Source of the DNA: Bacteroidia bacterium
GTDB taxonomy: Bacteria > Bacteroidota > Bacteroidia > Flavobacteriales_D > Crocinitomicaceae
DNA length: 60,416 nucleotides
NCBI GenBank assembly: GCA_030427935.1
Contig: JAUICI010000003.1
Coordinates: 1-60,416, forward strand
Reading direction: 5' to 3'
The notes under the pieces were generated by a model that saw only the letters and a program-made list of their open reading frames with translations, was not told the DNA's origin and made no database searches. Numbering within the stretch: the stretch's first letter is position 1; each line of letters begins with the position of its first letter. Positions 14,056-17,151 of this stretch are shown here, piece by piece. A program made the position numbers and the translations under genes.

Positions 14056-14119
14056 CCTCCCAAACCTGAAATTTATAACTAAGACAAGTAGTTGATAACC
14101 AATAAAAGGTGTTGTGAGC

Positions 14120-16018
14120 ATGATTAAATTAATATTAAGTTTGGCTGTTTTAATTTCAGTGATGACAGCCTGCAATACTTCTCCTCAAAAAGAGGGACAG
14201 ACAAAGAAAAATACTTCTCAGAATCCGAATGACAAGAACAAAAAGGACATGCATTCCTATTCAAATGTAGACGAGGTTCATACCAAGCACCTACATTTGA
14301 ATTTGAATATTGATTTTGACCAAAAGTTAGTTCATGGGATTGCAGTGCATCAGATCGAAAACCTTTCTGAGGCAGATGAAATGATCTTTGATATTAAAGA
14401 TCTAGAAATCGAAAAGGTAACCCTCGGAGAAGATGATCAAGAAACGGAATTTGAAATTGGTGAGGCCGATAAACTTATGGGTTCTCCTCTTAAGGTGAAA
14501 ATCACTCCGGAAACCAAAGTGGTTAAAATCCACTACAAAACTACTGAGCATACAGAAGCTCTTCAGTTTTTGAATGCACAACAAACGGCTGGAAAAAAGC
14601 ATCCTTATTTATTTTCTCAAGGAGAAGCGATTTTAACTCGAACTTGGATTCCTTGTCAGGATACACCTGGTAATCGAATTACCTATTCTGCAGATGTTAA
14701 GGTTCCTTCTGATCTTTTAGCTGTAATGAGTGCAGATAATCCTCAAAAGAAAAACAATACGGGTGAATACCATTTCGAAATGAAAAATCCAATTCCTTCT
14801 TATCTAATCGCAATTGCTGTTGGAGATTTGGAATTTCATGCGGTTGGACCTAGAAGTGGGGTTTATGCTGAACCTTCCATGATTAAAGCAGCAGCTTATG
14901 AGCTGTCAGACATGGAAAAAATGATTGAAAGTGCTGAAAGTCTGTATGGTCCATACCAATGGGGTCGATATGATGTAATTGTGCTCCCTCCTTCCTTTCC
15001 TTTTGGAGGTATGGAGAATCCAAAATTGACTTTTGCTACTCCAACTATTTTAGCTGGAGACAAGTCGCTTGTAAGTTTGATTGCACACGAATTAGCTCAT
15101 TCTTGGTCGGGTAATCTTGTTACCAATGCAACTTGGGAAGATTTCTGGTTGAATGAAGGGTTTACGGTTTACTTTGAGAATAGAATCATGGAGCAAATCT
15201 ATGGTAAAGAATATGCAGATATGCTTGCCCTTATCGAATATCAAGAATTGCAGCATGAAGTAGAAGAAATTTCTGAAGGCAAACATCCAGAAGACACACA
15301 CCTAAAGCTAGATCTTGAAGGTAGAAACCCAGATGACGGGATGACTTCCATCGCTTATGTGAAAGGAGCCTTCTTTTTGAAATCACTAGAAGAAGCTGCA
15401 GGAAGAGAAAGCTTCGATAAGTTCTTAAAACAATACTTTACGGAACATCAATTTCAAACAGTTACAACAGAAGATTTTGTTAAATATTTGGATCAAAACT
15501 TATTATCGAAAAATAATATAGAATTCAATATTGATGAATGGATTTATGGTCCTGGGATTCCTGAATCTTCGGTTAAAATTGTTTCAAATAGATTCCAATT
15601 GGTTGATGAAAAAATTGAGGTATTAAAATCAGGATCTGCAAAAGATCTTGGATTAAAAAGAAACGATTGGTCAACTCAAGAATGGCTGCATTTCCTTAGA
15701 CATTTACCTGCTGATTTAGATGTTGCTAAAATGAAAGAACTGGATGATGTATACAACTTCAAATCTTGCGGTAACTCTGAATTAATGGCCGAATGGTATG
15801 TTCAATCCATTAGAAAAGGATACAAAGGATCTGAAGCAGATATGGAGAAATTCTTGATCAACGTTGGTCGAAGAAAATTCTTGATGCCAATTTATAGAGA
15901 GCTTGCAAAATCGGAAGAGGGTGTTGCACTAGCTAAAGAAATTTATAACAAAGCCAGACCAAATTATCATGCGATCAGTACAAACAGTATAGATGAATTA
16001 TTAGCATACGAGATTTAG
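14120..16018 (+). CDS. M1 family zinc aminopeptidase, lipoprotein (leukotriene A4 hydrolase-like)
   Basis: Start taken at ATG 14120 (a GTG six bases earlier is the other option). The signal MIKLILSLAVLISVMTAC ends in a lipobox with Cys18, so the enzyme is probably membrane-anchored outside the cytoplasm. The 632-residue protein has the substrate-anchoring GGMEN (296-300) and the zinc site HELAHSW with His322, Glu323, His326 and Glu345 (LNEGFTVYFE). The C-terminal helical region (about 510-630) resembles the leukotriene A4 hydrolase C domain. It should release N-terminal amino acids from peptides. The divergently encoded POT transporter would take up short products. A terminator follows. Confidence 0.94.
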   Translation: MIKLILSLAVLISVMTACNTSPQKEGQTKKNTSQNPNDKNKKDMHSYSNVDEVHTKHLHLNLNIDFDQKLVHGIAVHQIENLSEADEMIFDIKDLEIEKVTLGEDDQETEFEIGEADKLMGSPLKVKITPETKVVKIHYKTTEHTEALQFLNAQQTAGKKHPYLFSQGEAILTRTWIPCQDTPGNRITYSADVKVPSDLLAVMSADNPQKKNNTGEYHFEMKNPIPSYLIAIAVGDLEFHAVGPRSGVYAEPSMIKAAAYELSDMEKMIESAESLYGPYQWGRYDVIVLPPSFPFGGMENPKLTFATPTILAGDKSLVSLIAHELAHSWSGNLVTNATWEDFWLNEGFTVYFENRIMEQIYGKEYADMLALIEYQELQHEVEEISEGKHPEDTHLKLDLEGRNPDDGMTSIAYVKGAFFLKSLEEAAGRESFDKFLKQYFTEHQFQTVTTEDFVKYLDQNLLSKNNIEFNIDEWIYGPGIPESSVKIVSNRFQLVDEKIEVLKSGSAKDLGLKRNDWSTQEWLHFLRHLPADLDVAKMKELDDVYNFKSCGNSELMAEWYVQSIRKGYKGSEADMEKFLINVGRRKFLMPIYRELAKSEEGVALAKEIYNKARPNYHAISTNSIDELLAYEI

Positions 16019-16040: not shown

Positions 16041-16074
16041 AAAAAGCGATTCTTTTGGGAGTCGCTTTTTTTTT
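16041..16074 (+). terminator. Terminator after the M1 aminopeptidase
   Basis: AAAAAGCGATTC and GAGTCGCTTTTT pair (one G-U) around TTTTGG and run into nine T residues. Confidence 0.88.
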
Positions 16075-16075
16075 G

Positions 16076-16134
16076 ACTTGGGGACTTGGGGACTTGGGGA
16101 CTTGGGGACTTGGGGACTTGGGGACTTGGGGACT
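16076..16134. repeat. Tandem 8-bp repeat, ACTTGGGG x7
   Basis: Seven perfect copies of ACTTGGGG (16076-16131) plus a partial ACT lie directly between the aminopeptidase terminator and the stop codon of the four-helix-bundle gene. A degenerate version in the opposite orientation lies beyond the start of that gene at 16541-16573. Perfect short tandem repeats are prone to copy-number change. Confidence 0.95.
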
Positions 16135-16492
16135 AATGAAGTCTTTTCTTTAAACTATTGATTAATCCTTGAATGTTTTTTTGAGCTATATCTAGTTGAT
16201 GAAATGATTCTTCTATCTGGATGTTGGAGTAGAGCCTTGAAATAAGTATCAGTTGTGTCTCGACCTCATAACTTGATCCTTTGGCTATTTCAAGAAATCG
16301 CAAAAACTCTTTTATAGATTTCTTACTCGATCCTTCTGCAATGTTTGATGGAATTGAAACTGCAGATCTTTTGAGTTGACTTGACAGTCCAAATCTTTCC
16401 TCAACTGGTAATTCACCAATACTTTGGTAAACAACTGTTGTCAAAGTCATGGATTCTTTCCATGCATTTAACTCTTTGAAATTGTGTTTCAT
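16133..16492 (-). CDS. Four-helix bundle protein (S23/IVS-encoded protein family)
   Basis: 119 residues matching the four-helix-bundle (S23, TIGR02436-type) family: FKELNAWKESMTL at the start, LSSQLKRSAVSIPSNIAEG in the middle (the family hallmark), EFLRFLEIAKGSSYEVETQL after it, and helix four to the end. Relatives are encoded in 23S rRNA intervening sequences and as stand-alone genes, and the Avd accessory protein of diversity-generating retroelements has the same fold. The stop codon lies at the edge of a tandem GACTTGGGG repeat, and an inverted, degenerate copy of the repeat lies 49-81 bases beyond the start, so gene and repeats look like one inserted unit. No reverse transcriptase is present. 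Function unknown. Confidence 0.9.
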   Translation of the reverse strand: MKHNFKELNAWKESMTLTTVVYQSIGELPVEERFGLSSQLKRSAVSIPSNIAEGSSKKSIKEFLRFLEIAKGSSYEVETQLILISRLYSNIQIEESFHQLDIAQKNIQGLINSLKKRLH

Positions 16493-16540
16493 TTGATTGA
16501 TTTAAGTGGTTAATAAATTTTTGAATATTGATCTAATACA

Positions 16541-16573
16541 AAAGTCCCAAGGTCACCAAGTCCTTAAGTCCCT
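16541..16573. repeat. Inverted, degenerate GACTTGGGG-like repeat
   Basis: On the minus strand this reads as degenerate units GGACTT, AGGACTTGG and TTGGGACTT; it is the reverse complement, in degenerate form, of the tandem array at 16076-16134. The stop codon of the DUF4199 gene (16564-16566) lies inside it. Confidence 0.7.
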
Positions 16574-17151
16574 CCATCTCTAGGCCCCACAACCCTCATA
16601 TCTCTAAACAAAACCCTTCGAAATAAAAAGGTCACAATAAGCGAATTCAGGAAAACGCCTGTCATCATGGATAAAAGAGCAATCGTTGCCATGAATATAG
16701 GCGAGACAAATCTGTTTGCTTGTTCGGATTGTAGGTCTACAATATCTTCTCTAGAAAGTCCCTTAAGGTTCTCATTCTCGTTTCGATACTTTTCCAAATC
16801 CTCATCATCTTTAAGTAACTCAATCACCTCTGCCCTTTGTTGCGCTTTGATTTTTTCCACATAGTCGGGGTCTACCCAAGCATAAAAAGCATAAATCGAA
16901 GCAAAAATGACGATCACGTAGACCATTCCAGATTTAATGGCAACCTTGATATCGTCCAAAAAATTAACTTCAACATAGTTTTCAGCTTTTTTCTTTAGAA
17001 ATAATCCGACGGCCACTGAAGCTAAAAGCAAAAGTATATTCAGCATAAGACCAGGCATCAAGGAGTCCTCGATTCCAGCGAAAAACATAATGCATTTTAT
17101 CACAAACCAGCCTAATCCAAAAAATAATGGGAATTTTAAGTAAGTATTCAT
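16564..17151 (-). CDS. DUF4199-like integral membrane protein
   Basis: 195 residues with four hydrophobic segments at about 5-25, 33-51, 73-92 and 150-176, and a charged helical loop at about 95-145 (KIKAQQRAEVIELLKDDEDLEKY). The layout and size match the Bacteroidota DUF4199 family, whose function is unknown. The last codons and the stop lie in a GACTT-type repeat that borders the four-helix-bundle element, so the C-terminus (RVVGPRDGGT) may have been altered by insertion. It follows rho on the same strand, behind rho's terminator. Confidence 0.7.
   Translation of the reverse strand: MNTYLKFPLFFGLGWFVIKCIMFFAGIEDSLMPGLMLNILLLLASVAVGLFLKKKAENYVEVNFLDDIKVAIKSGMVYVIVIFASIYAFYAWVDPDYVEKIKAQQRAEVIELLKDDEDLEKYRNENENLKGLSREDIVDLQSEQANRFVSPIFMATIALLSMMTGVFLNSLIVTFLFRRVLFRDMRVVGPRDGGT

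Follow-up and report, generated by a model that had tools for sequence, protein, structure and literature searches.

An S23 gene between inward-facing arrays of 7-8-nt repeats: a candidate family of miniature intercistronic elements

Results

An S23 gene lies between two inverted arms

The window (the whole stretch of 60,416 nucleotides that was analysed) carries a small S23/IVP gene set between an M1 aminopeptidase gene and a DUF4199 gene and bracketed by short repeats. The features are listed below, with the arms named as seen from the S23 gene.

14114..16018, plus strand: M1 family aminopeptidase, the downstream host gene; it adjoins DUF4199 without S23 in genome G001
16041..16074, plus strand: hairpin and T-run of the aminopeptidase terminator; the element begins at the next base
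16075..16134, plus strand: 3' arm, 7.5 perfect ACTTGGGG units, the last partial unit overlapping the S23 stop codon
16133..16492, minus strand: S23/IVP four-helix-bundle ORF, 119 aa (PF05635, TIGR02436)
16541..16575, minus strand: 5' arm of four degenerate units, in the orientation opposite to that of the 3' arm (direct sequence reading); the two arms pair in the predicted fold
16564..17151, minus strand: DUF4199 gene, the upstream host gene; its stop codon (16564-16566) lies inside the 5' arm

The S23 ORF scored 104.9 bits against PF05635 (cut-off 33.8) and 107.7 against TIGR02436 (cut-off 24). Its 3' arm contains seven exact copies of ACTTGGGG (16076-16131), where 1.05 would be expected by chance in the window, and seven copies were reached in none of 100 shuffles. 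TRF described the same arm as a period-8 array of 7.5 copies with 100% matches (16075-16134), the top-scoring tandem array of the window. At one end the array begins at 16075, right behind the T-run that follows the aminopeptidase terminator hairpin (16041-16070), and at the other, two bases of the S23 stop codon (CTA, 16133-16135) come from its partial last unit. The 5' arm, beyond the S23 start, reads GGGACTTA AGGACTTG GTGACCTT GGGACTTT on the gene strand. An earlier note on this DNA had placed a four-helix-bundle gene with bracketing repeat arrays at 16075-16573, and every feature that it named is present, as judged by sequence reading, TRF and PF05635. This anatomy is best read as an element of about 0.43-0.5 kb with two inward-facing arms, inserted between two genes.

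All S23 genes of the source genome are flanked by short repeats

The source genome (3.9 Mb in 289 contigs) contains nine PF05635 genes. Short repeats flank all nine, with a different 7-8-nt unit at each locus (AAGTTCT, AAAGTCT, CCTTAAT/GAAGGAT, TTACCTA, AAAAGTA, ACTTGGGG and others), and they are inverted wherever both flanks are readable, one of the nine loci being a contig end. When the upstream flank was scored against the reverse-complemented downstream flank, seven of the eight measurable S23 genes scored above the 99th percentile of a control set, 292 further genes from this genome. A one-off locus is ruled out, since all nine S23 loci are alike, and a chance repeat or an ordinary terminator is ruled out by the shuffles, these 292 control genes and the swapped-flank controls described below. 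The genome-wide search for copies of the 8-mer array that the earlier note had proposed gave a divided answer: the exact double ACTTGGGG unit has no second site in the 3.9 Mb, so the unit found in the window stays confined to this one locus, and similar arrays with other units stand at the eight other S23 genes.

Strong tandem arrays were then counted in 387 kb of the source genome, a sample picked so as to include S23 contigs. They had a period of 7 (14 arrays) or 8 (five arrays), and none of period 5, 6 or 9-12 was present in the same 387 kb. Seven of them lie at most 300 bp from S23 genes. The 12 others resemble the local S23 arms, with a score of 496 against 314 +/- 36 for a null in which arms were drawn from other genomes, and none of 200 random draws scored as high. 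At one gene-less locus (L344, G000:C170, 8960-9360), a TAGGTAA array and its flank (GGATTTTATCACTTCACTCTCCGAACTCTGCG...) occur twice, about 200 bp apart; the array is repeated together with its flank, and the repeated unit is therefore larger than the heptamer array.

Inverted arms accompany S23 genes in many phyla

S23/IVP genes are present in 32 of 39 related genomes and in 35 of 79 Xanthomonadaceae; no S23 relatives were found in phage records. Across 117 S23 loci from the source genome and its relatives, the median inverted-repeat score was 31 for a gene's own flanks versus 20 for swapped flanks, and 50 loci lay above the 99th percentile of the swaps, where about one would be expected. A further 89 loci from many phyla and from plasmids behaved similarly (33 versus 19; 38 above the 99th percentile). 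Of the 206 loci, about 40% pass this strict test, the remainder having weak, decayed or no arms, and in one S23-rich complete genome (G025) no strong arrays were found in 400 kb, even beside S23 genes. Sequence autocorrelation peaks at 7, 8, 14, 15 and 21 on both sides of the gene and only within 200 bp of it, and C is scarce on the sense strand of the upstream arm.

What sets the unit of a locus? Overall protein similarity was rejected as the determinant: unit and protein similarity were uncorrelated in distant pairs (rho -0.05) and correlated only among close relatives, where some pairs may be unrecognised same-site pairs. A fixed consensus or an 'AG' anchor within the unit was likewise rejected, its enrichment being modest (74 units versus 55 expected, with 40 of 114 lacking AG). 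These values bear on a TRAP-like regulator, in which the S23 ring would bind one mRNA repeat per subunit and regulate the expression of its own gene and of genes beside arrays, the arrays being regulatory sites and not mobile arms. The regular spacing of the units would suit such a protein, as would the arms that often adjoin start and stop codons, and the solved S23 homologue Xcc0516 (PDB 2gsc) is indeed a homopentamer of four-helix bundles (PMC4990558). Units that differ from locus to locus and the modest AG anchor argue the other way, as does a median net charge of the S23 protein of only +2, and we consider this explanation highly improbable.

Some loci display more complex arrangements. 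Two loci of one genome (L069 and L082, both G026) encode S23 proteins that are 82% identical, at different sites and with related arms, AATTGACAATGGAT and TTGATAGTTGACAG; their main homology block stops just outside the gene, making the pair a candidate within-genome copying event. In two Clostridia MAGs (L131, L152), TTAGCCG-type S23 arms are joined to further shared sequence, GGGCGGGACACCCGCACCCGAT, which flanks the gene on both sides in L152. In a Paludibacterium MAG (L165), complex longer repeats of the GGCGGGAGTAAAAGCGAAACCTTA type surround the S23 gene, in both orientations on each side.

Sites without the element exist, and the two arms of a site match

Conserved gene pairs are often split by S23, such as nrdB-nrdA on a Nostoc plasmid, or accB-accC and carA-carB in Xanthomonadaceae (acc and car identities being read from translated gene starts). 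At the window locus, the one same-genus genome compared (G001) has the aminopeptidase gene adjoining DUF4199 and no S23 gene, with flanks of 79-80% nucleotide identity. This empty site retains a short heptamer-like stretch, AGTTTGAAGTTTGAG, so the site may reflect loss of the element instead of gain. At another site, orthologous in the source genome and G001 (L008/L059), the unit is AAGTTCT in both and the copy number differs.

The accB-accC junction of Xanthomonadaceae exists in two states: closed, usually with about 10 nt, or occupied by an insert of ~430 bp made of arm, ORF and arm. Measured between the stop codon of accB and the first accC codons that are conserved, the junction spans 15-115 nt (most often 22) in 20 of the 21 S23-minus genomes where it was measurable and 347 nt in the last, all without S23. 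In 15 S23-plus genomes it spans 445-544 nt, made up of a few-unit arm, the ORF and a second arm reaching accC. At several of these loci (L239, L248, L249, L251, L253, L254, L257) the S23 frame reads through the 3' arm and stops inside the accC start, so that translation of the arm gives a C-terminal tail. These precise empty sites of homologous elements, the G001 site and the other repeat-gene pairs support the idea, put forward in the earlier note, that a unit had dropped between two genes; an arrangement fixed in every relative, with no other pairs and no empty site, is not what we found.

The accB-accC site also reveals how the arms vary. Its unit is GTGAATC, GGGAATC, GGGAATG, GTGATTG, GTGATTC or GGGATTC, depending on the species, and the two arms of one species match each other (mean 42.7) better than they match the arms of other species (29.3; p 5e-5 in a permutation that leaves in units common to related species).

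In some genomes, gene-less arrays carry the unit of a resident S23 gene

In Luteimonas, whose S23 arms are built of GGGAATC, 63 exact triple-unit matches are dispersed, and the reversed control gave none. Inward-facing pairs 25-120 bp apart were present at 12 of the 20 gene-less loci read, close outward-facing pairs were seen at none of the 20, and several gene-less arrays abut start and stop codons. Among the 79 Xanthomonadaceae genomes, four-unit GGGARTC arrays are present in 19 of the 35 that have S23 and in 4 of the 44 that lack it (Fisher 1e-5); dispersed arrays of the tested units are absent in 15 of the 35. On an accC tree, itself weakly resolved, S23 presence changed at least eight times, and the available sister contrasts favour the S23-plus genomes for arrays, with one tie; one S23-minus genome (G080) carries arrays. 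A genome with GTGAATC S23 arms (G065) holds 273 GTGAWTC matches. Two of its contigs (C5, C8) start 2-4 bases from long GTGAATC arrays, so the arrays probably break the assembly and the array counts are minimal. RAYT was rejected as the agent in Xanthomonadaceae, being detected in one of the 79 genomes at a strict E cut-off of 1e-20 that may miss divergent RAYTs.

TAACTGA was rejected as an S23 arm unit: four-unit arrays of it occur in one of 299 genomes of the order, and there they are gene-less. One gene-less TAACTGA array (L346, G128:C34, around 7100) lies between acyl-CoA dehydrogenase-like and thiolase-like genes, a pair that is split by S23 at L133 and L170 in the opposite gene order.

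These distributions have to be weighed against passive arrays, that is, heptamers produced by polymerase slippage at gene junctions, into which S23 inserted or by which it is tolerated, in a non-causal role. Among long simple repeats, heptamers are the most frequent in many bacteria, and slippage has been proposed for them (PMC4692102, PMC4679880), and arrays without S23 do exist, as in G080 and G128. Slippage, however, leaves three observations unexplained: the identical inverted unit on both sides of the gene, the joint change of both arms at one orthologous site, and the tracking of S23 presence and unit by arrays across genomes. We therefore judge passive arrays improbable.

The element resembles the intervening sequence of 23S rRNA

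The 23S rRNA intervening sequence (IVS) of Coxiella burnetii is 428 nt long, with terminal inverted repeats, an S23 ORF and GACAGAT heptamer repeats upstream of that ORF, and it is cut by RNase III (PMC4990558). Like an IVS, the window element places an S23-family ORF in an insert of ~430 nt, with inverted ends that are complementary in the minimum-energy fold. Unlike an IVS, it lies between the aminopeptidase and DUF4199 genes, outside a 23S rRNA gene, and its arms are built of 7-8-nt units in tandem, which are specific to the locus, and have dispersed gene-less relatives.

The likeness raises the possibility of an RNA-level insulator, an IVS outside rRNA whose arms would pair in the co-transcript so that a duplex-cutting RNase (RNase III) frees the S23 mRNA from the message of the host operon. 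Selection on pairing would then keep the arms complementary, and mobility would be ancient or rare. With neighbours called by ORF length alone, S23 runs in the same direction as both of them at 147 sites and lies antisense to the two at 17, as co-transcription would have it, although codirectionality may merely reflect a need for read-through expression. The 513-nt transcript of the window element has a predicted fold of -121.2 kcal/mol (z = -4.9). Its minimum-energy structure pairs the two arms, yet the centroid leaves them unpaired. Pairing alone, moreover, leaves the 7-8-nt tandem period and the gene-less single arrays unexplained. The insulator is compatible with a mobile element, and the two may coexist; as the main explanation we regard it as unlikely.

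Discussion

Our analysis points, with somewhat better than even confidence, to the window locus being one copy of a widespread, mobile family of miniature elements, each made of an S23 ORF and of 7-8-nt arms that are recognised and copied. The family is apparently undescribed so far. The arrays at S23 genes, the empty sites, the matched arms, the unit shared by gene-less arrays and the co-occurrence of S23 with arrays count for a mobile element; S23-plus genomes without dispersed arrays, the arrays of G080 without S23, the heptamer-like remnant in G001 and the fact that no movement was seen count against it. Mobility and arm recognition are what we infer from this comparison of genomes. The term 'self-copying' used in the earlier note thus goes further than our results: movement was not observed, the S23 protein shows neither a known motif of nucleases or transposases nor a recognisable catalytic family, and the window unit is not dispersed. 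We know of no transposition intermediate of S23 elements.

The family is best understood by analogy with RAYT/REPIN, as a system that would work similarly with a non-homologous protein. There, the repeats flanking the gene recur without it as inverted, hairpin-forming extragenic pairs in the same genome (PMC3116915). Luteimonas displays the same relation between a repeat-flanked gene and dispersed gene-less inverted pairs, and the source genome displays it in part, with gene-less arrays, none of them of the window's own unit. By contrast with RAYT, a Y1 HUH transposase (PF01797), the S23 protein is a four-helix bundle; the window protein has no PF01797 match, its sole Pfam match being PF05635. 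The repeats differ too, being heptamer arrays here and palindromes of ~20 bp in REPINs. In the mechanism that we propose, the S23 ring, a pentamer in the homologue Xcc0516, would recognise its own arms, as DNA or as folded transcript, and this recognition would allow new intercistronic gaps to receive copies of arm pairs and of the whole element. Gene-less pairs would be non-autonomous derivatives that depend on the resident S23 gene for their maintenance, in the way that REPINs depend on RAYTs. Slippage, combined with arm-to-arm (hairpin-templated) correction, could prevent the two arms from diverging from each other as the unit drifts.

The link drawn in the earlier note between this family and Avd of diversity-generating retroelements (DGRs) has weak sequence support, in the form of a distant similarity (7 of 13 S23 family members match Pfam bAvd, best E 2e-8). 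Unlike an Avd gene of a DGR, the window copy is flanked by M1 aminopeptidase, DUF4199 and Rho, with no adjacent reverse transcriptase, and no template/variable repeat pair was seen at it.

The S23 arms also recall published heptamer arrays, which share the period of 7 and an intergenic position near start and stop codons. In Xanthomonas, GGGAATC arrays form 70-75 convergent pairs per genome and were left unexplained by Rehm et al. (PMC4692102); their unit is the S23 arm unit of Luteimonas. Nostoc has GGGGA(C/T)T arrays (PMC4692102) and Beggiatoaceae have TAACTGA repeats (PMC4679880), and the three have been described as G-quadruplex or translational elements (PMC4692102, PMC4679880). No TAACTGA-armed S23 gene was found here. 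A term search retrieved no mention of S23 or four-helix genes in PMC4692102 or of S23 in PMC4679880, and no paper joining S23 and heptamer repeats was found among open-licence PMC papers.

We propose tentatively, at a little less than even confidence, that many heptamer arrays, namely the GGGAATC arrays of Xanthomonas, the STRR-type arrays of Nostoc and those of Bacteroidota, owe their existence to one common agent, the S23/IVP proteins. This would be a new kind of replicator: a small ring protein would recognise short tandem-repeat arms that are free to drift in sequence, keep them homogeneous and spread them, with the rRNA IVS as a special case.

Heptamer repeats have been noted in bacteria for decades with no agreed cause, slippage, G-quadruplexes and translational control having all been proposed, and S23/IVP genes are common and, to our knowledge, have no known function. 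S23 elements may explain the puzzling heptamer repeats of bacteria such as Xanthomonas and Nostoc. If this is true, the S23 protein would gain a likely substrate and the heptamer repeats a likely origin, and rRNA intervening sequences would be extended to a general intercistronic element.
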